From positions 1 to 21,900 of IMG/VR virus record IMGVR_UViG_3300025652_000641: a DNA stretch of 21,900 nt, one strand, 5' to 3'. The position numbers and the translations under genes are program-made. The notes beneath the pieces were generated by a model. That model saw only the letters and a program-made list of their open reading frames with translations. It searched no databases and was not told the origin of the DNA. This stretch comes from a virus. Of the stretch, positions 2,230-18,120 are shown one piece after another; the stretch's first letter is position 1, and each line of letters opens with the position of its first letter.

Positions 2230-4069
2230 TTGCTGTGCTACATGTACAGATCTAGAACCTGTAATAAACTATTGTAAAGACAAGAAAATACTTGCAATAG
2301 ACACTGAGACTACAGGATTGAATCATATTGACGACAAAATGATTATGTTTCAGATAGGTGATAAAGATGTGCAGTTTGTTATTGATACAAGATACATAGA
2401 TATAACACCTCTTAAATTCATACTAGAAGATCCTGGAATACTTAAGATACTACACAATGTTAAGTTTGATTACAAGTTTATTATGAAATATAATATTAGA
2501 CTTAATAATGTATGGGATACTATGCTAACTTCACAGGTTATACATTGTGGTAAACAGATGTCACATAGCTTACTAAATGTTCTTGAAAGAGAGCTAAATA
2601 TAACTATGGATAAATCTATAAGAGCTAGTTTTATTATAAAAGGTAGCGATGAGTTCACTGAAACAGAGATCAAGTATGGTGCTAGAGATGTAGAATATCT
2701 TATAGAACTATATAATAATCAAACAGTTACAGTGATACAGCATAATCTTATACATACAGCAGAACTTGAGAACAAAGCTGCGCTAGCGTATGCAGACATC
2801 GAGTACAATGGTATTGGTTTGGATAAAGATAACTGGATTAAACTTGCACAAAAAGCAGCTTACAAAGTTACAAGTATGTGCAACACTCTAGATACATACA
2901 TAGAATCTAATCCAAAACTTAATAAGTTTATAGATGATTATGTACAAGGTGATTTATTTATGGATGTAACACAGCTTAGAAAAGTAAATGTAAAATGGTC
3001 ATCACCAAAACAAGTGTTAGATGTATTTAAAACATATGGTTTAGATGTGGAAGATGTGAACGGTAAGAATTTATACGTGCACAGTAAAGATCCATTTGTT
3101 AAAACCTATATTAAGTACAAAGAGCAAGCCAAACTGGCTACAAGTTATGGTGATAAGTTCTTTGAGAATGTAGATAGTGACGGCAGAGTTCGCACAAGCT
3201 TTAAACAAATACTAAATACAGGTAGAGTTGCATCAGGTAGACCCAATATGCAACAGATACCAGCACACAATGATTATCGTAATTGCTTTGTTAGTGGTTA
3301 TGATGATTGGGTATTTGTATCAGGCGACTACAGCTCACAGGAGCTATGTATTATAGCCACAGGGAGTAAAGACCCAGTGTGGATTAAAGCGTTGGAAGAT
3401 GGAGAAGATCTTCATAGCGTGTGTGCAGATTTAGTTTATGGCAAAGAATGGCAAGATGCAGCAGACCCTGATTGTGCTTATATGCAATCAAAAGCTAAAT
3501 GCAATTGCAATAAACACAAGAAGCTGCGCACAAATGTAAAAAGTATAAACTTCGGTTTAGCCTATGGTATGGGCCCACACAAACTAGCTGATACATTATT
3601 AATAACTATCAAAGAAGCAGAAAGATTAATTCAGAAATACTTTACAGCATTTCCTGCAATTAAAAACTTTCTTGAGTCTCTTGGTAATTATGGTAAGCAG
3701 AATGGACATATTAAAACATATGCACCATATCGTCGTATTAGATGGTTTGAAGAGTGGCAAGGACATAATACAGATAAGGCTGTAATGGGTAAGATAGAAC
3801 GTGCTAGCAAGAACACACCTATACAAGGTAGTGGTGCTGACATGTGTAAGTCTGCACTTGTTATGGTACGTGATTATATACATCACAACAACTTACCTGT
3901 TAAACTAGTGATGACAGTTCATGATCAGATCGACACAATTGTACATAAAAGCTACGCAGACACGTGGAAATACACATTGCAAGACATCATGGAAACATCA
4001 ACACTAGATATTATACCATCAGGGCTACTAAAAGCAGAGACAGAAATATCAACAGTATGGAAAAAGTAA
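2195..4069 (+). CDS. polA: DNA polymerase, family A, with 3'-5' proofreading domain (624 aa)
   Basis: Replicative phage DNA polymerase of the Pol I type. The N-terminal DnaQ-like exonuclease shows Exo I with D36 and E38, Exo II with N88 and D92 (HNVKFD), and Exo III with Y161 and D165 (YGARD), so proofreading should be active. The polymerase part shows the template-primer motif NTGRVASGRPNMQQIP (341-356), motif A with D378 (DYSSQE), motif B with K449 and Y457 (KSINFGLAYG) and motif C with H576-D577 (VHDQ). There is no 5'-3' exonuclease domain, as is usual for phage enzymes. Between motifs A and B, C427, C436, C438 and H441 form a possible metal-binding insertion. The SF2 helicase gene begins inside its last codons. 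Confidence 0.96.
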   Translation: MIQFVGNPKLLDCCATCTDLEPVINYCKDKKILAIDTETTGLNHIDDKMIMFQIGDKDVQFVIDTRYIDITPLKFILEDPGILKILHNVKFDYKFIMKYNIRLNNVWDTMLTSQVIHCGKQMSHSLLNVLERELNITMDKSIRASFIIKGSDEFTETEIKYGARDVEYLIELYNNQTVTVIQHNLIHTAELENKAALAYADIEYNGIGLDKDNWIKLAQKAAYKVTSMCNTLDTYIESNPKLNKFIDDYVQGDLFMDVTQLRKVNVKWSSPKQVLDVFKTYGLDVEDVNGKNLYVHSKDPFVKTYIKYKEQAKLATSYGDKFFENVDSDGRVRTSFKQILNTGRVASGRPNMQQIPAHNDYRNCFVSGYDDWVFVSGDYSSQELCIIATGSKDPVWIKALEDGEDLHSVCADLVYGKEWQDAADPDCAYMQSKAKCNCNKHKKLRTNVKSINFGLAYGMGPHKLADTLLITIKEAERLIQKYFTAFPAIKNFLESLGNYGKQNGHIKTYAPYRRIRWFEEWQGHNTDKAVMGKIERASKNTPIQGSGADMCKSALVMVRDYIHHNNLPVKLVMTVHDQIDTIVHKSYADTWKYTLQDIMETSTLDIIPSGLLKAETEISTVWKK

Positions 4070-5235
4070 GTTCTAGAACAGAGAGGCAGCTTGAGATAGT
4101 TCAGAAGTTTGCTGATAATAAAGGTAAAGGTACACTGCTAGCAGCTACAGGCTTTGGTAAAACTTTCACAGCTATTATGGTTATTATAAGATTATTGAAG
4201 GCTAGGAAAGACGGTAGAGTTATTATTGTTGTGCCTACAATTAATCTTAAGAATCAGTGGAAGAAAGAGCTAAAGCAAAACAAAGTACATAATAGCTGCG
4301 ATGTAATTGTCATTAACACTGCGTATAAAAATAAACTTACATGTGATTTACTTATATGTGATGAGATACATGCTTATGGCGCAGAACAGTTTATTAAAGT
4401 ATTTGATAAGATTACATATCAGTTTATATTTGGTTTGACAGCTACAATAGAACGCTCAGATGGTATGCATGAAGTATTACTAAAGTATGCACCTGTTATT
4501 GATGAAGTTCCTATTGAAGAATGCCATCAGAATGAGTGGGTTAGTGATTACCTTGTGTACAATCTAGCTGTACCTATGTATGATGATGAGCAAATTGCAT
4601 ATGATAAAGCAAACAAGAAGTTTAGGTATGCCGCAGGTAGACTAGGCTTTGGTGGTGCACAATCATTTAATAATGCTCGTAAGTATCTACAAGACAGTAG
4701 TGCTGATCCTGGATTACGTGCAGCTGCAGCTATATATTATAACTCTATGCGTGAGCGTGGTGATATATGTAAGAATTCTCAAGCTAAAATACCTGTTATT
4801 AAAGAGTTGCTAGAAAAGTTTGATGACCGTAAAGCCTTGCTATTCAGTGCTTCAACTAAATTTGCAGATGAAGTACAAGAAGAGTTAGGTGATGTGTGTC
4901 TAAGTTTTCACAGTAAACGTACAAAGAAACAGCAGGTAGAAATACTTAAGAAGTTTAAGGATGGACGTACAAAACAGCGTGTAATTAGTAGTGTTAAAGC
5001 TCTGAATGCAGGTTTTGATGTCCCTGACTGTTCTCTTGGTATTGTAGCTGCAGGTAATTCTAAGAAACTTGATAATATACAACGTACTGGGCGTATTATT
5101 AGGTATGTCCCAGGTAAAACAGCAATTATTATTAATCTCTATGCACCTAACACGCAGGAAGTTTCGTGGCTTAACAAGCGACAGGAAGGACAGAATGTAG
5201 TGTGGGCTGAAAGCATAGAAGAAATTACAGTATAA
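4057..5235 (+). CDS. Superfamily 2 DNA helicase, DEIH type (392 aa)
   Basis: ATP-dependent helicase or translocase of the XPB/UvsW-like branch of SF2. Walker A is ATGFGKT (30-36) and Walker B is DEIH (102-105). Motif III is TAT (128-130), followed by ERSDG. In the second RecA domain, FSASTKFADEV, the NAGFDVP segment and motif VI QRTGRIIR are visible. An in-frame opening at 3964 would lie deep inside the polymerase gene. ATG 4057 fits the first helicase motif (RTERQLEIVQKF) and gives a 13-nt overlap, so it is chosen. Its place beside the polymerase suggests fork remodelling, branch migration or annealing during recombination-dependent replication. The next small gene starts on the last base of its stop codon. 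Confidence 0.93.
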   Translation: MEKVSSRTERQLEIVQKFADNKGKGTLLAATGFGKTFTAIMVIIRLLKARKDGRVIIVVPTINLKNQWKKELKQNKVHNSCDVIVINTAYKNKLTCDLLICDEIHAYGAEQFIKVFDKITYQFIFGLTATIERSDGMHEVLLKYAPVIDEVPIEECHQNEWVSDYLVYNLAVPMYDDEQIAYDKANKKFRYAAGRLGFGGAQSFNNARKYLQDSSADPGLRAAAAIYYNSMRERGDICKNSQAKIPVIKELLEKFDDRKALLFSASTKFADEVQEELGDVCLSFHSKRTKKQQVEILKKFKDGRTKQRVISSVKALNAGFDVPDCSLGIVAAGNSKKLDNIQRTGRIIRYVPGKTAIIINLYAPNTQEVSWLNKRQEGQNVVWAESIEEITV

Positions 5236-5381
5236 TGGATGAACATGTAAAAGTGCTACTTAAAATTGTAGACGCACAGCAGAAGCAATTAGAATCAAGC
5301 CAACAGCAGATAAGTGTAATGACAAAAGAATATGTCAAGCTTGCTGCTTTAATAAAAGATAAATTAGGCAAGAGTGATTAA
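5235..5381 (+). CDS. Small coiled-coil-like protein, 48 aa
   Basis: The ATG overlaps the TAA of the helicase gene (TAATG), which implies translational coupling. The product begins MDEHVKVLLKIVDAQQ and is rich in Gln, Lys, Leu and Val with a heptad-like pattern, so a short coiled coil is likely. No family is recognised. It is the last gene before the 429-nt non-coding region and ends at TAA 5379-5381. Confidence 0.6.
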   Translation: MDEHVKVLLKIVDAQQKQLESSQQQISVMTKEYVKLAALIKDKLGKSD

Positions 5382-5581
5382 CGGTTAAACTCTAATCATC
5401 TCAGTTACCGAGCGCGATACTGCGATACCAAACCTGAGAGCCTATTTTCTAAAAGCTAAAACAACTACGGATAGGAACCACGAAGCAATCTCTTAGGAGT
5501 GCGCATGGTGGAAGTAGAGGACGCGATACCATGAAAATCCCTACTGAGTCTGGAGTCACTGACGAGTGACATAGCTTTTTT
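5382..5581 (+). ncRNA. Structured RNA region with several helices, ending at a terminator
   Basis: No reading frame longer than about 14 codons is seen. Helices that can be drawn: TCTCAG 5399-5404 with CTGAGA 5434-5439; CCTAT 5441-5445 with ATAGG 5471-5475; AGTAG-A-GGA 5513-5521 with TCCCTACT 5538-5545 (one bulge); and CATGGT 5504-5509 with ACCATG 5528-5533, which excludes the previous one. AAAAGCTA 5451-5458 can pair with TAGCTTTT 5572-5579, the U-run of the terminator. GCGATAC occurs three times (5414, 5422, 5523), the last two extending to GCGATACCA. The density of pairing and the terminal hairpin suggest an independent phage RNA, or a leader that switches termination. It matches no RNA class I can name. 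Strand is inferred from the flanking genes. Confidence 0.45.
5555..5580 (+). terminator. Hairpin followed by U-run
   Basis: GTCAC 5555-5559 pairs with GTGAC 5566-5570 around TGACGA, and ATAGCTTTTTT follows. The stem is short (5 bp) and four bases separate it from the U-run, so efficiency is uncertain. The U-run can also pair with 5451-5458 upstream. Confidence 0.5.
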
Positions 5582-5583
5582 AT

Positions 5584-5644
5584 AACCCTCCTAAATCTTT
5601 ATTTAATTTTTGGATTTAATTTACTTTTTTTGCATTGGAGGGTT
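5584..5644. other. Inverted repeat closing an AT-rich stem-loop
   Basis: AACCCTCC 5584-5591 is the exact inverse complement of GGAGGGTT 5637-5644. Directly inside it, TAAATC 5592-5597 matches GATTTA 5613-5618. The enclosed 45 bases are almost pure A/T with a run of seven T at 5625-5631. This could be an RNA hairpin, or an AT-rich, easily melted DNA element next to the short repeats that follow. Confidence 0.5.
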
Positions 5645-5658
5645 TAGTACGTGAGCAA

Positions 5659-5709
5659 GCTGCGTGAATGCTGCATCTCATACGAGAGTGGGCTGCGTGA
5701 GTGCTACAT
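5659..5709. repeat. Two imperfect 18-bp direct repeats, 33-bp period
   Basis: GCTGCGTGAATGCTGCAT (5659-5676) and GCTGCGTGAGTGCTACAT (5692-5709) agree at 16 of 18 bases. Between them lies a small hairpin, CTC-ATAC-GAG. A weaker third unit, ACGTGAGCAAGC, precedes the first copy by about one helical turn. Such spacing could suit iterated protein-binding sites, as at an origin, or two equivalent arms of an RNA. The sequence is richer in GC than its surroundings. Confidence 0.55.
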
Positions 5710-5749
5710 ATTTAAATCCTAGTTTAAGCAATATGGCTAGGTTGTTCTG

Positions 5750-5799
5750 TCGGGGAGGTTAAAGAAATGGTCGTCGGCGGCCTCCCTGATTTAATTTTA
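5750..5799 (+). terminator. Terminator-like hairpin before the 5811 gene
   Basis: TCGGGGAGG 5750-5758 pairs with CCTCCCTGA 5781-5789 over 9 bp with one G-U pair and a 22-nt loop, then TTTAATTTTAA. It is preceded by a second hairpin, CCTAG 5718-5722 with CTAGG 5737-5741. A 14-codon frame (ATG 5767 to TGA 5809-5811) runs through the 3' arm and overlaps the ATG of the next gene, so attenuation or coupling is an alternative to simple termination. Confidence 0.4.
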
Positions 5800-5810
5800 A
5801 AGCAGAAGTG

Positions 5811-5942
5811 ATGCCTAAAAAAAGAAAACTAAACAGTACAAACCCTAAGTATCGTCCTGCTACAAAAAAGGTAGTAGACACTACAAAACACGATCTAATA
5901 TGTATAGCAAAAGGTGTTAAAATCTATGCTACATTTAGATAA
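5811..5942 (+). CDS. Small basic protein, 43 aa
   Basis: The frame runs from ATG 5811 to TAA 5940-5942. The product begins MPKKRKLNSTNPKYRPATKK and ends in a hydrophobic-mixed segment (DLICIAKGVKIYATFR). The strongly basic N-terminus suggests nucleic acid or ribosome contact. It is the first gene after the structured region. No family is recognised. The gene call rests on the frame, the spacing and the A-rich codons typical of its neighbours. Confidence 0.5.
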   Translation: MPKKRKLNSTNPKYRPATKKVVDTTKHDLICIAKGVKIYATFR

Positions 5943-5963
5943 TTATTAATTTAAATTTACATT

Positions 5964-6143
5964 ATGGAAGTATTTTTAGGAGTAATAACTGTCATATTAT
6001 TATATGTGACATTTGAAACAATTAAATTAAAACAAAAAGAAAAAGAAAATGAGCGTAGAAGAAAACAGCGAAAGACTGGATCGCCACGAAAAAGTTATAG
6101 AAAAACTAATAGATCAAGTGGCAAAGCTACAAGTAGCAAATAA
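5964..6143 (+). CDS. Small membrane protein with basic tail, 59 aa
   Basis: Residues 2-17 (EVFLGVITVILLYVTF) form one hydrophobic helix able to span or enter the membrane. The remainder is a Lys/Arg/Ser-rich tail (KEKENERRRKQRKTGSPRKS). The layout resembles small phage inner-membrane proteins, but no family is recognised. The last 95 bases are also read in another frame by the gene at 6049, so the composition of the tail may be partly dictated by that overlap. Confidence 0.5.
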   Translation: MEVFLGVITVILLYVTFETIKLKQKEKENERRRKQRKTGSPRKSYRKTNRSSGKATSSK

Positions 6144-6219
6144 TATACAAAACTTTATCAATGAAGCTAATTCAAAAGGTAAAGAGGAAGACATTTCTGA
6201 TACGCCACTCAGGCCGTAG
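6049..6219 (+). CDS. Small acidic coiled-coil-like protein, 56 aa
   Basis: The frame starts at ATG 6049 inside the 59-aa membrane gene and ends at TAG 6217-6219 inside the radical SAM gene. Residues 8-34 (ERLDRHEKVIEKLIDQVAKL, then QVANNIQ) have a clear heptad pattern of a coiled coil, followed by a polar tail. Small holin-associated or lysis accessory proteins can look like this, but nothing proves that role. The good heptad pattern despite overlap at both ends makes it likely to be translated. Confidence 0.55.
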   Translation: MSVEENSERLDRHEKVIEKLIDQVAKLQVANNIQNFINEANSKGKEEDISDTPLRP

Positions 6220-7021
6220 CACAGATTTTATATCTCCATCCTTTGGCTATGGCTGCTTATATAATTGCTCATATTGTTATATGAAACGCCATAAGCCTGA
6301 AGGATTGAGTGTGGCCACTAACATTGGTGATATACTTACAGAGTTAAACAACCATGCATACTTCACACCAGTGGAGAAACCCAATCAGACACATGCAGAG
6401 TATACTACGTACGACATTAGTTGTAATGAAGACTTTGCACTGCATGCTAAATACTATGATTGGGAAAGGATCTTTGCATTTTTTAGAGATCATCCTGTTG
6501 CAATGGGTTCGTTTGCTACTAAATATGTTAATCCAAATTTAATTAACTTTGATCCGCAAGGTAAAATACGTATTAGATTTAGTTTGATGCCGCAGTACAT
6601 GTCAACATTGCACGAACCAGGTACATCTAAAATTATAGATAGAATTAAAGCTATCAATGCATTTATAGAGGCAGGTTACGATGTACATGTTAACTTTAGT
6701 CCTGTTATCGTAGAAGATAATTGGCTAGAGGATTACGAAGAACTGTTTGATATGCTTAACGACTATGTTGAGTATAAAGATCAAGTTAAAGCAGAAGTAA
6801 TATTTTTAACACATAATAAAAAGAAACATGAAGAAAATTTAGTAAAGCACCCTGAAACAGAAGTACACCTATGGAATCCTGCAATCCAGGAAGAGAAAGT
6901 CTCGCAGTACGGTGGAACTAACATAAGGTATGCTAGACATTTAAAGTATTTGTATATAGATGCATTTAAAGCTTTACATGAAAAGATTATACCTTGGAAC
7001 ACAATAAGATATATATTTTAG
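6161..7021 (+). CDS. Radical SAM protein, spore photoproduct lyase/DNA photolyase-like (286 aa)
   Basis: The cluster motif GCLYNCSYCYMKRH carries C32, C36 and C39 in the CX3CX2C spacing that binds a 4Fe-4S cluster and S-adenosylmethionine. The following Tyr and the region YTTYDISCNEDFALHAKYYD, then VNFSPVIVEDN, resemble the SplB-like group (COG1533), members of which repair thymine dimers in spores or are uncharacterised phage enzymes. A DNA repair or base-modifying role is therefore plausible but unproved. The protein is shorter than Bacillus SplB (about 340 aa). The start at ATG 6161 overlaps the preceding small gene by 59 nt. The alternative is another radical SAM activity, such as nucleotide modification. 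Confidence 0.85.
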   Translation: MKLIQKVKRKTFLIRHSGRSTDFISPSFGYGCLYNCSYCYMKRHKPEGLSVATNIGDILTELNNHAYFTPVEKPNQTHAEYTTYDISCNEDFALHAKYYDWERIFAFFRDHPVAMGSFATKYVNPNLINFDPQGKIRIRFSLMPQYMSTLHEPGTSKIIDRIKAINAFIEAGYDVHVNFSPVIVEDNWLEDYEELFDMLNDYVEYKDQVKAEVIFLTHNKKKHEENLVKHPETEVHLWNPAIQEEKVSQYGGTNIRYARHLKYLYIDAFKALHEKIIPWNTIRYIF

Positions 7022-7022
7022 T

Positions 7023-7235
7023 ATGAAAAAAGGATACCATGACTACACTCCTGTAGTTGAAAAAAAGAAACTTAAAAAGAAAAAGAAAAATACAACAGGT
7101 CTTGTAACAAAAGACGTGTTTGAACTTCAATTTGGATTTGAATACCCAAAAGTCTATCAAAAATATAGACATGTAGAACCAATTAGATACCCTAAAACAG
7201 ACGGAAGCAATGGCAAAGTTAGTAGATTTCGCTGA
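7023..7235 (+). CDS. Hypothetical basic protein, 70 aa
   Basis: The frame starts one base after the stop of the radical SAM gene and overlaps the DUF932-like gene by 26 nt. The N-terminal third is extremely Lys-rich (EKKKLKKKKKNTTG). The rest is polar and aromatic (FELQFGFEYPKVYQKYRHVE). The Lys-rich part comes from an A-rich stretch that could also serve as an initiation region. No family is recognised. Confidence 0.6.
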   Translation: MKKGYHDYTPVVEKKKLKKKKKNTTGLVTKDVFELQFGFEYPKVYQKYRHVEPIRYPKTDGSNGKVSRFR

Positions 7236-7956
7236 TCTGGGTCTTATTAAGACACCAGAGCGCACAGAGACTTACGTACCAGTAAGTCACCAAGAATTAG
7301 TAACAAGAATTAAAGAAGCAGGTACAAAACATTACAATACTGCACCTTTTGAAGAGAGACTAGAAGTAAATCATAAAGGCCAACAAATGTTTGGTAGTAT
7401 GACATTTCATCATGGCTCTAGTTTAGCAGGTAGCGGTATGAATAGAAGTATAGGCTTTCGTAATTCTTATGACAAGACATTACCTATAGGTGTATGTGGT
7501 GGAGCATCAGTATTTGTATGCTCTAACCTTATGTTTACAGGTGATATTATTAAGATGCGTAAACACACGCAGAATGTAGAAGACGACTTAGATATTCTTA
7601 TACAGAAGCTTTTTGCTGATGTAGATCGTCGTTATGATGAGTCTGTTGAAGCTAAACAAACTATGCAAGAAATAGAATTTAGCGATACAGACGCAGGTAA
7701 TTATTTTGGTCAATTATTTGTAAATCAAGGTGTTTTGAACGGTGCACAACTAAACAAAGCAACTAAAGAATGGTTTGAATCTCCTGTATTTACTGAGCGT
7801 ACAGCTTGGTCTGCATATAATGCATGTACAGAAGCACTTAAAGCTGCACATCCAATGAATGCTTTGGAAAAGTATACTAAATTACATACATTTACAAAAG
7901 AATTTTCGATAGACCCTTATCTTAATATGTTAAAACAAGAGCGTCTATTGTTCTAA
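7210..7956 (+). CDS. DUF932-like phage/plasmid protein, 248 aa
   Basis: The central segment, IGFRNSYDKTLPIGVCGGAS followed by VFVCSNLMF, is the hallmark of the DUF932 family (phage/plasmid-like proteins), where an asparagine-serine/tyrosine-aspartate motif is followed by a Gly-Gly and a Cys-Ser-Asn motif. Members occur in many phages and plasmids next to replication and recombination genes. Their biochemical role is not firmly established. The C-terminal half is helical (KATKEWFESPVFTERTAWSA). The protein is soluble and lies in the middle of the replication block. Confidence 0.7.
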   Translation: MAKLVDFADLGLIKTPERTETYVPVSHQELVTRIKEAGTKHYNTAPFEERLEVNHKGQQMFGSMTFHHGSSLAGSGMNRSIGFRNSYDKTLPIGVCGGASVFVCSNLMFTGDIIKMRKHTQNVEDDLDILIQKLFADVDRRYDESVEAKQTMQEIEFSDTDAGNYFGQLFVNQGVLNGAQLNKATKEWFESPVFTERTAWSAYNACTEALKAAHPMNALEKYTKLHTFTKEFSIDPYLNMLKQERLLF

Positions 7957-14726: not shown

Positions 14727-17132
14727 ATGAAACTACAACAACACACGAATGTCGAAGAAGTTATCGGCGTTCAAAAACAACACAAGTTCAAAATTACGGA
14801 CGGATCACAGGCTATCATTATGGATAGCCTGATTAATTTATACTCGGACCCTATTGGTTCGATTGTCCGTGAGATCACTTCTAATTGTATTGATGCAAAC
14901 CGCGAGCGAAACTTAAAGATAGACGGTAAAATTCCTATGGAAACAGAGGATGATAAGTCTTTCTGGTCTAATCGTCAAACGGTTTGTATCGAATATATTA
15001 CGAAGAACACTATCCTAGGCGTGGATGAGTGTATTATGTTCCACGATTATGGTTGTGGTTTATCTCAAGAGCGCGTACAAAATGTATTTACTACATTTGG
15101 CGCATCTACTAAGAGAGATAACAACTACGAGATCGGTGGGTTCGGCCTCGGTGCAAAATCACCTTTGGCTTATGCAGATACTTTTTATGTATCTAGTAGA
15201 CACAATGGTACTGAGACATATTATATGATCTATCGTAATAACGATAACGTTCCACATATGGATCAGGTATATCAGGCAGCTACAGATCAACAAAATGGTA
15301 CCACTATTATTGTCCCTATTAAAAGCAGGTATGATGCTTCTGACTTTAGAGATGCCATCAGTAATCAGCTTGCATACTTTGACAACATTGTATTAAAGAA
15401 TGTTGAAGAAGGTATAGGTAAAGTTCGTAACTATTATCACGGCAAGAATGTAATAGAAGAAACAGATTCTTATGTCATAACTAATGATGGCGCTGATCCG
15501 TGTCTTCTTGTAGGCAGAGTTAGGTATCCTATTAACTGGAGTATGCTTAAAGATGTAGATGAATCCTACTATAAAGCTAGTGTAGCTTTTAAGTTTAATA
15601 TTGGTGTGCTTGATCTTGTACCTTCTCGTGAAGAGATACGATACACTCCTAAAACTATTAAACTTATTAAGACAGTACTTAATGATGTAAAGAAAAAGTT
15701 TAAGGATGATATAGCAGCCAAATATGCTGATATTACAGATTACATTGAATATTTACTTGCTATATCTAATATAGGTGGTGGAGGCTATCACTATTCATCT
15801 CTTACAAGTAGTGATCCATCAGCTGTAAAAGCTAGTATGGCAGCCTTAACAGCTTATGATGTGCAGTACAAGCCTAACGAAACCCTTACTCCTAGTAGAG
15901 GGCATGGTTATGATAGAGCTTTTCATCAAATATTTGATGGTATATCTGTGTATCATTGTAAGAAAACTAGTAATTCTTCTGCTATAGGCGGTGAAACTAT
16001 ATACAATAAAGAGTTGTTTAGTTGGCATGAAGTTTTTGATGCACTTACAAAGGTAGAGCATATGTATTATGTGCAAGGTAACTTTAATAAACTTAAGAGT
16101 TATTCTATTATAAATGGTAGAGAAGAAGAATCTTTTGTAGCATTTAAAGCAGATAAACTTAAGATCGGTGCTAAACTTGAATCTAAATCTAACAATCTTA
16201 CTGACTCTCGTCCTCTAGCTCAGAAGCAAATGACATATACTACTGTGGCTAGATTACTTGGTCAATCTAAATGTATGATGTCCTATGAAGATGTAGAAGA
16301 TGCAGATATTAGTGAGTCTTTTGGTGATGTGGTTGATAACAAGACCCGTCGTAAGATTAACAAGATGGTGTTTGCTCGTGATGCTTATGTTAAAGCTAGT
16401 GGCTATGAAGTAGGTATTAAATATTCTAATCATGAATATAAAATTGCTGATCTTCAAGAAAAACTACAAGAAGAAGATCCTACTTTAAAAGCTGTAGTCT
16501 ATGCTGAAACTAAAGATATTGACGAACTTGAGAAAGTTGTCAAAATTCTTAGTAGCACTAAAGATTACATCTACAGTCAATACGGCGGCTATGATTATCA
16601 CTTTGGAAGTCAATACAAAGTTTTAAAAGTCGCTAAGAGTGTAGCAAAAGATTTTAAAGATTTAGAAGGATTTATAACAGCACATGAGTTTATGAAAAGC
16701 CCAAAACACCTGCAGAGATTTATTACTGCACAGAAAATTAGTGGGTATATTAAAAGTTTTACATTTTTATCTAACTATAAAGAGTATAATGGATCATTGT
16801 TTGGTTTGTACAAATCTCTTGATAAGTATTGTAATGACAATACCAACAGTTGTTGGCGTTGTGAAGACGATATAAAACCTATAGTTAATGAGCTTATGAA
16901 ACTAGATATACCAGATGAAGTTAGGTATAGTATGAACATGATAGATAAGCTAGAAGAGGTGGTAGAATATTCACAAGGTTTAGACCTTTTGAACTATGTA
17001 AACTTCTGCTCTACAGCTAGGAAATCTATAGAAGATTTCTTATCTTTAAAGGACAAACTACCTGGCAATCAACAAATTAAATTAACATTAACAGCTAAAA
17101 ATCAAAATGAAAATGAACTACTTAGTAGCTAA
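14727..17132 (+). CDS. rIIA: rIIA-like GHKL ATPase protein (801 aa)
   Basis: The N-terminal part is a GHKL/histidine-kinase-type ATPase domain: N-box REITSNCIDANRE (48-60, with E49 and N53), G1 box FHDYGCGLSQERV (D107, G109, G111), and G2 box IGGFGLGAKSPLAYAD (136-151). This matches the RIIA family of T4-like and other phages, a membrane-associated factor that lets phage overcome prophage exclusion. The length is close to T4 RIIA (725 aa). The remaining 600 residues are helical with long Lys/Glu stretches and no recognised motif. The rIIB-like gene starts within its last codons, as in T4, where the two are adjacent. Confidence 0.9.
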   Translation: MKLQQHTNVEEVIGVQKQHKFKITDGSQAIIMDSLINLYSDPIGSIVREITSNCIDANRERNLKIDGKIPMETEDDKSFWSNRQTVCIEYITKNTILGVDECIMFHDYGCGLSQERVQNVFTTFGASTKRDNNYEIGGFGLGAKSPLAYADTFYVSSRHNGTETYYMIYRNNDNVPHMDQVYQAATDQQNGTTIIVPIKSRYDASDFRDAISNQLAYFDNIVLKNVEEGIGKVRNYYHGKNVIEETDSYVITNDGADPCLLVGRVRYPINWSMLKDVDESYYKASVAFKFNIGVLDLVPSREEIRYTPKTIKLIKTVLNDVKKKFKDDIAAKYADITDYIEYLLAISNIGGGGYHYSSLTSSDPSAVKASMAALTAYDVQYKPNETLTPSRGHGYDRAFHQIFDGISVYHCKKTSNSSAIGGETIYNKELFSWHEVFDALTKVEHMYYVQGNFNKLKSYSIINGREEESFVAFKADKLKIGAKLESKSNNLTDSRPLAQKQMTYTTVARLLGQSKCMMSYEDVEDADISESFGDVVDNKTRRKINKMVFARDAYVKASGYEVGIKYSNHEYKIADLQEKLQEEDPTLKAVVYAETKDIDELEKVVKILSSTKDYIYSQYGGYDYHFGSQYKVLKVAKSVAKDFKDLEGFITAHEFMKSPKHLQRFITAQKISGYIKSFTFLSNYKEYNGSLFGLYKSLDKYCNDNTNSCWRCEDDIKPIVNELMKLDIPDEVRYSMNMIDKLEEVVEYSQGLDLLNYVNFCSTARKSIEDFLSLKDKLPGNQQIKLTLTAKNQNENELLSS

Positions 17133-18120
17133 AGTAACGCCGAGTGACGTTACAGTAATTATTGATGGAAAGCACAAGAGAATCCGAAAGGATTCTCCTG
17201 ATGCTGAATTAGTTATTGCTCTCGTAAAGCAATACAATTCGTGTAATATTCTAACTGAGAGGGAAGATATTATTACAAAGATAGAAGAACTTTGCAATCC
17301 TGCAAAGAAAATTGAATTTAATTCTGATGGAAGATTTGAATTCGATGGTAACTCTGCTATGTATCTTAAAGGTACAAGCGATCCGATACCTGAGTTTCTT
17401 GCTAAAAAGCTTTTAGAATATATTGACAAAGGTTTAAACGTAGAAGCTCTGGTTAACTTCTGGAAGAACACGTTGCTTAACCCTGATAAAGGTGTTAGAC
17501 AACAGCTGTTCGGATTCTTAGAACATAATGGACATCCTATCACTGATAAGGGATATTTCTTAGCTTATAAAGCTGTAGCTGTTAAACGTAAGTTTGATGT
17601 AGAAACAGGTGAAGAGGTTATAAGTATTCGTTATGACGAAGAAACAGGTGAGCGTGTGGAAGAAACTCTTAATCATTCTATGACGTTTAAACCGTTCCAT
17701 TCTGGGTCTCATGGTATGACTATTAAAATGGGTGAGCCTATTACAATGCCAAGAGAAGAGTGTGATTCTGATCCTGATGTAACTTGTTCTGCAGGTTTAC
17801 ATGTAGGCTCTATGCAATATGTACATGATTTTGGTTACAGTGATAGAGTAATACTTGAAGTATTAGTTAGTCCTCGTAACGTTGTAGCCGTTCCTACTGA
17901 CTATAACAATACAAAAATGCGATGCTGTGAATACTATCCTATTGCTATTACTAATGGTGAGAATGATACTATTTACTTAGAATCTGACTATGCAGCATTT
18001 GATCATGCTACTATGGAAGATGATATTGTAAACTATGAAGAATCTAAACGAGATGTAATTAAACAAATCGAAGATGAGTTAGCAGAACGCAGACTTGTTG
18101 CAGATTCTATTATAGATTAA
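17107..18120 (+). CDS. rIIB: rIIB-like protein (337 aa)
   Basis: The segment FWKNTLLNPDKGVRQQLFGF, then FLEHNGHPITDKGYFLAYKA, and later CSAGLHVGSMQYVHDFGY, followed by VILEVLVSPRNVVAVPTDYN, is the conserved core of phage RIIB-like proteins. T4 RIIB (312 aa) works with RIIA against exclusion, at the membrane or at the replication complex. An N-terminal basic region (KHKRIRK) could bind nucleic acid. Two ATGs lie at 17107 and 17113; the first is used here. It overlaps the rIIA-like gene by 26 nt and is the last gene of the + block, 83 bases before the convergent - strand gene. Confidence 0.88.
   Translation: MKMNYLVAKVTPSDVTVIIDGKHKRIRKDSPDAELVIALVKQYNSCNILTEREDIITKIEELCNPAKKIEFNSDGRFEFDGNSAMYLKGTSDPIPEFLAKKLLEYIDKGLNVEALVNFWKNTLLNPDKGVRQQLFGFLEHNGHPITDKGYFLAYKAVAVKRKFDVETGEEVISIRYDEETGERVEETLNHSMTFKPFHSGSHGMTIKMGEPITMPREECDSDPDVTCSAGLHVGSMQYVHDFGYSDRVILEVLVSPRNVVAVPTDYNNTKMRCCEYYPIAITNGENDTIYLESDYAAFDHATMEDDIVNYEESKRDVIKQIEDELAERRLVADSIID

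Follow-up and report, generated by a model that had tools for sequence, protein, structure and literature searches.

A candidate gene-end RNA element with two pseudoknot families in a probable marine relative of crAss-like phages

A gene-free stretch in a phage related to the crAss-like phages

What does a phage with densely packed genes do with 429 nt that hold no evident gene? Such a stretch (positions 5382-5810) was noticed in a virus record of 21,900 bases, referred to here in its full length as the window, and a first-pass annotation had suggested a large phage RNA, a switch for the genes from 5811 onward, or a replication origin. The absence of an evident gene was borne out: only open reading frames of 32-40 aa lie in or across the stretch, and a 44-aa frame begins at 5808. 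The gap between genes thus stood, but the conserved structure has other borders, running from 5363 to about 5800 and beginning inside the 3' end of a 48-aa open reading frame. This frame was found in relatives L002, L003 and L006 and is missing in L005, L008 and L010, where module A (see below) directly follows the helicase gene.

Sequence comparisons suggest that the window's phage is a marine relative of the crAss-like phages: its polymerase and helicase share 24-34% identity with crAss-like phages, among other phages, and the structural protein of a 96-kb relative matched 85 phage records, with all eight of the matches listed being crAss-like. These three proteins were used for the assignment because a search of two records for the terminase (PF03237) gave no match.

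DNA similarity searches against 50,697 phage records gave weak, chance-like matches only, and the exact window pattern had no match in viral contigs. The helicase and the protein encoded at 6161-7021, used as queries, yielded 34 and 80 loci from viral contigs, and BLASTN of the stretch against these loci revealed two conserved blocks (window positions ~5360-5448 and 5643-5677), with the ~195 nt between them missing or replaced in relatives. The folding energy of the stretch is not above that of shuffled sequences (MFE z-score -0.79, equalled or surpassed by 21 of 100 shuffles); the predicted fold of the island is supported by covariation, not by energy, and the right leads in the first-pass annotation were the repeats and the gene-free length. 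The features of the window are as follows, all on the + strand.

5235-5381: 48-aa open reading frame upstream of the gap; its stop codon (TAA, 5379-5381) sits in the P2 loop of module A
5363-5447: module A (covariation, covariance model, RNAalifold)
5366-5369 with 5440-5443: helix P1 of A (alignment of relatives)
5372-5375 with 5389-5392: helix P2 of A (alignment of relatives)
5382-5385 with 5407-5410: pseudoknot of A, 4 bp (alignment of relatives)
5400-5404 with 5434-5438: helix P3 of A (alignment of relatives)
5413-5415 with 5422-5424: helix P4 of A (alignment of relatives)
5448-5583: insert E, between A and D; variable, common only to L025/L125
5451-5458 with 5572-5579: closing helix of insert E (compared by eye)
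5555-5570: terminator-like hairpin in insert E (terminator scan; shuffle mean 0.5)
5584-5644: hairpin D, AACCCTCC (5584-5591) with GGAGGGTT (5637-5644), by eye
5647-5676: module B, first copy, H-type pseudoknot (model 46.0 bits, covariation)
5680-5709: module B', second copy with a different stem (model 39.2 bits, covariation)
5714-5746: hairpin F, CCTAG/CTAGG, by eye
5744-5800: hairpin C, terminator-like; stem 5749-5790, loop with GGTCGTC

Two conserved pseudoknot modules and their variable surroundings

In module A, helices P2 and P3 lie inside P1 and P4 lies inside P3, and the pseudoknot joins the P2 loop with the strand linking P3 and P4. An alignment of 27 of the 29 unique A sequences (86 columns; L179 and L026 were omitted as too diverged) has 96.9% of 540 cells paired, with changes on both sides in 11 of 20 pairs (83 cells); none of 500 shuffles matched the paired cells, the double changes or the covariation score, kinship being ignored, while the count of pair types was not above these shuffles. 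The nested helices were recovered by RNAalifold unaided. The window sequence is itself a member of the training set of the A model, and E-values of these short-calibrated covariance models are rough. A pattern built on the loops of A picked 101 stretches; 51 of the 65 new loci were submitted to model R1, and A was present at 80-99 bits in 29 of them. Among these 29 new copies (25 distinct), none used in the model, 97.0% of 500 cells are paired; double-sided changes affect 11 pairs and 68 cells, values that 0 of 500 shuffles reached (kinship ignored). The search pattern set 8 of the 40 paired columns and left P1, P4 and the larger part of both P3 and the pseudoknot free. The most diverged member scoring clear of chance is L188 (59 bits). 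In bacterial genomes the pattern matched 87 stretches, and since none of the 80 tested with the model exceeds 23.9 bits, A appears restricted to phages. A distant A variant behind the helicase gene (17 loci, 20.9-25.4 bits) is unproven against bacterial chance matches of up to 23.9 bits; its matches fit the fold of A by eye, and a joint alignment, in which MAFFT misplaced two helices, had only 83.5% of cells paired.

The proposed 18-bp repeats are real as repeats but longer, namely two copies of 29 nt (5648-5676 and 5681-5709), 79% identical and 33 nt apart, and these are the two B pseudoknots. In B, three nucleotides (mostly ACG or AAG) form the pseudoknot with the loop of the hairpin (CGU or CUU). 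The 5-bp stem differs in sequence between copies with its pairing maintained; both stem and pseudoknot covary. Among 55 distinct sequences, 97.3% of 440 cells are paired and 52 cells are changed on both sides; the paired cells, double-changed cells and score were reached by 0 of 500 shuffles (kinship ignored), and the count of pairs with double changes was matched by 131 of 500. This alignment holds 55 of 90 unique segments; near-duplicates, copies in which one additional base follows the pseudoknot strand, and a small number of apparent chance matches were left out. The pattern derived from the second conserved block matched 106 stretches in viral contigs and none in a genome collection of 84,980 species. 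B also turned up unsearched in 12 of the 51 loci fetched by the A pattern, in nine of these within 6 nt behind A. Many loci carry a single B, and the small pseudoknots of both A and B have strictly conserved unpaired bases. The proposal of a conserved structured phage RNA is thus strongly supported by the covariation of A (in two sets) and of B.

The elements between and behind these modules vary more. Of the rearrangement proposed within insert E, the helix 5504-5533 loses two of six pairs in L025, the sole relative sharing the segment, and its competitor (5513-5545) is kept there with one G-C to G-U change (by eye), so that no switch is supported. The long-range pair that closes the insert is uninformative in L025, because it is identical to that of the window; in L003, L007 and L009 closure at this position falls to another helix, different yet self-complementary (by eye). 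GCGATAC is present three times (5414, 5422 and 5523), and a fourth time at another place in the window (0.82 expected), but the triple is not conserved: relatives have GTAAGAC and similar sequences. In the inserts of L003, L007, L009 and L011, between A and D or B, another possible pseudoknot module, GGTAATGTCTCAACAATACCAATAAGACC, was seen by eye. Hairpin D shows one compensatory pair in relatives (AACTCTCC/GGAGAGTT, by eye), and the outer pairs of hairpin F change together in some relatives (CCTAGC/GCTAGG, CCTAGT/ACTAGG, by eye).

Of the two terminator-like hairpins of the first-pass annotation, one was recovered by the terminator scan, which picks 5555-5570 in the window, not hairpin C; a second, G+C-rich hairpin folds at 5749-5790. 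Hairpin C folds in all 26 sequences examined (one of the 17 rows of the C/F alignment, L211, is a wrongly placed and uninformative stretch) and, with its U-tract, closes the long form of the island shortly ahead of the next start codon; the tract is strong in many relatives and weak in the window and some others. C resembles an intrinsic terminator by its U-tract in many relatives and differs by its large conserved loop (GGTCGTC...) and by the A/B pseudoknots and F ahead of it.

One island among replication genes, often at stop codons

The module order in the window is A, insert E, hairpin D, B, B', F and C. The order A, B', F, C is kept in several lineages, with a recurring arrangement A-(insert)-(B)-B'-F-C; short forms are A alone between two genes (at its shortest 85 nt, wedged between them), B alone behind genes, A without C, and B without A. 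In searches of whole records, 9 of 13 matched model R2 and 7 of 15 matched model R1. Within a record the matches share a single site, G013 excepted, and each matching near-full-length relative has one island. In G013, B modules lie at both ends of one contig (113-142 and 67724-67753); the break in the assembly seems to fall within the island, and variation of its inserts between strains may be the reason. The largest such island was seen in L190 (413-1030), whose ~600 nt include four B modules and several hairpins but lack a convincing gene.

The island is located among replication genes, and the genes and inserts beside A and B turn over between relatives. Arrays with A have nine upstream and 14 downstream gene families, with several downstream families behind the same helicase gene; such varied neighbours are as expected of an element serving a gene boundary rather than one gene. 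A small membrane-protein-like gene is next downstream in 29 of 75 unique cases, compared with 16% of control small open reading frames, a link found in some lineages and not general. Directly beside B, one locus has a tRNA; at two further loci the neighbour is a tRNA-like gene carrying a long insertion. The tRNA-like genes (L029 7714-7850 and L184 12578-12721) have ~65-75 nt inserted relative to the tRNA model, and ARAGORN missed both. A tRNA with anticodon TCA was also observed at L029 1042-1137 (and L234 6968-7063); ARAGORN predicts tRNA-SeC, and it could be a UGA suppressor tRNA.

The first elements of the arrays often start between 22 nt before and 15 nt after the stop of a frame of at least 50 codons (A, 32 of 57; B, 26 of 70; random positions in the same range, 476 of 6350), and in the window and in others A overlaps the end of the coding frame. 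These counts take one locus per contig, with duplicates removed as recognised by hand; they include the 17 loci of the distant A variant, as do the neighbour-family counts. The other first elements (25 of 57 for A, 44 of 70 for B) lie away from a recognised stop, in part as a result of the count's limit to upstream frames of at least 50 codons. B copies with a CUU loop are found at the stop of a frame of at least 40 codons in 18 of 23 unique contexts, against 13 of 113 for CGU-loop copies (Fisher p 3e-10, kinship not corrected); in the CUU copies the pseudoknot strand often coincides with the stop-codon sequence (UAAG, UAG), or the frame ends at an in-loop UGA. This contrast links the B pseudoknot to translation termination.

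Known RNAs, possible functions and significance

Membership in GOLLD or another catalogued large RNA, as first considered, was not supported: no Rfam family matches the window at the gathering score, and a search of 5200-6200 at E<=5 gave weak matches far below gathering. Across the window and the related loci tested, nothing in Rfam, including ROOL and ribozyme families, matched at A, B, F or C, and tRNA was the sole match at A/B in 13 further loci. A and B were likewise not found in the bacterial genomes tested or in ten named phage records (eight Crassvirales and two unclassified faecal scaffolds; best scores of 20.1 bits for A and 16.6 for B, unconvincing). No description of the island's element was found in the titles and abstract openings of mainly open papers on structured RNAs of phages and crAss-like phages. 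GOLLD itself (RF02032, 197-222 bits) does occur outside the island: 4 of the 28 records of relatives carry it, on the strand of module A and ~4.5-6 kb upstream of that module. The window lacks it. The copies are:

L007 2277-2672 (G009 16791-17186, + strand): GOLLD RNA
G006 23394-23783, - strand: GOLLD RNA
G020 7067-7486, - strand: GOLLD RNA
G021 4049-4442, + strand: GOLLD RNA

We read the island as a cis-acting gene-end RNA element, at a probability of about 0.38, which would fold after the terminating ribosome leaves and would protect, process or terminate the mRNA. The A and B pseudoknots are predicted to form immediately after the upstream gene's stop codon or to span it; because a terminating ribosome would cover their 5' strands, folding could follow only on its departure. 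Once folded within a transcript presumed to be a single RNA, A and B would serve as mRNA punctuation, a rigid block defining the mRNA end and protecting it against exonucleases or after cleavage, and hairpin C would form the terminator-like 3' boundary of the long form. Exonuclease-resistant RNAs are defined by stopping an exoribonuclease, and in phage T7 RNase III processing hairpins lie between genes and recur along the genome. Like the latter, the island is structured RNA that separates one gene's stop codon from the next start codon in a phage operon; it differs in consisting of pseudoknots and in occupying one place per genome. A general processing site would be expected to recur, and the single island per near-full-length record tells against the punctuation reading, as do the first elements away from a recognised stop (about half of them), the weak U-tract of C in the window and some relatives, and the lineages with A but no C or B but no A.

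The single island per genome, together with its indifference to neighbouring genes, makes a trans-acting phage noncoding RNA a close rival, possible although unlikely, which would be released by processing from the operon and act in the style of GOLLD/ROOL or as a decoy against host defence (pseudo-ToxI). Consistent with it are also the recurring module order, the three loci that have a tRNA or tRNA-like gene amid their modules, and the GOLLD copies elsewhere in relatives; a module as short as 85 nt between two genes, and one that overlaps the end of a coding frame, fit it poorly. Passages of PMC12286853 describe GOLLD and ROOL as structured, pseudoknotted phage RNAs with variable inserts and with tRNAs nearby or inside. 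The island shares these traits, but is smaller, is built of modules of 26-85 nt, lies at stop codons and has no Rfam match. ToxI repeats are described in a part of PMC3475682 as near-identical 36-nt units beside the ToxN toxin; B resembles ToxI and phage pseudo-ToxI as a short pseudoknot unit, at times in tandem, but the window's two copies are 79% identical with different stems and many loci carry a single B, so that a tandem array of the ToxI type was rejected. ToxN (PF13958) was found in 0 of 14 records, with the control genomes likewise silent.

It is also conceivable, though we are rather doubtful of it, that A and B are two new RNA classes that incorporate a stop codon in a pseudoknot, or bring it up beside one, and thereby read out translation termination. 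The element would stay open while ribosomes terminate and would lock when upstream translation ceases, altering the fate of the transcript; the change of B from ACG/CGU to AAG/CUU with stop-codon use would be the mark of this coupling.

Less likely than a trans-acting RNA is a leader or attenuator of the downstream gene, in which A or B would sense a ligand, a protein or the ribosome and decide on read-through at hairpin C. The position of the terminator-like C shortly ahead of the next start codon and the small membrane-protein-like gene in 29 of 75 cases would suit it, but the downstream gene varies (14 families behind A arrays), A without C exists, and the competing helices of insert E are unsupported. 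The proposed switch for the genes from 5811 is no more than a possibility, and the differing flanking genes of relatives that keep the RNA speak against a device dedicated to one gene. The varied downstream genes also led to rejection of an autoregulatory pseudoknot of the gene 32 type, which, according to a part of PMC3014915, is part of the 5' leader of the T4/T2 gene for the single-stranded-DNA-binding protein and is bound by gp32; the island likewise has compact H-type pseudoknots in the mRNA of phage replication genes, but its modules stand at gene ends beside many different genes.

A or B might instead be a self-cleaving ribozyme cutting the transcript at gene ends, which is improbable: small pseudoknots with strictly conserved unpaired bases at gene boundaries would fit, but no Rfam ribozyme family matched in the window and related loci tested. 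A DNA site, i.e. the replication origin first suggested or a recombination site for gene-cassette turnover, is very improbable despite the location among replication genes, the turnover beside A and B and the B modules at both ends of G013, as in three near-full-length relatives of 91-96 kb the GC-skew turns follow gene strand and are kilobases away from the island, the covarying set of five short helices with a pseudoknot is better explained by RNA, and the integrase (tyrosine recombinase, PF00589) was found in 0 of 13 records, some incomplete, against 14 of 14 control genomes, by which an integron-like cassette site was rejected.

Modules A and B make up two families of compact pseudoknotted RNA, strongly supported by covariation and unmatched in Rfam, carried by an uncultured marine phage group that appears related to the crAss-like phages, and they are well-defined objects to probe. 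That relatives keep these modules, vary them with pairing preserved and often place them at gene ends points to a new phage RNA element, and the placement of A and B on stop codons would allow a direct test of whether translation termination is coupled to the fate of transcripts in phages.
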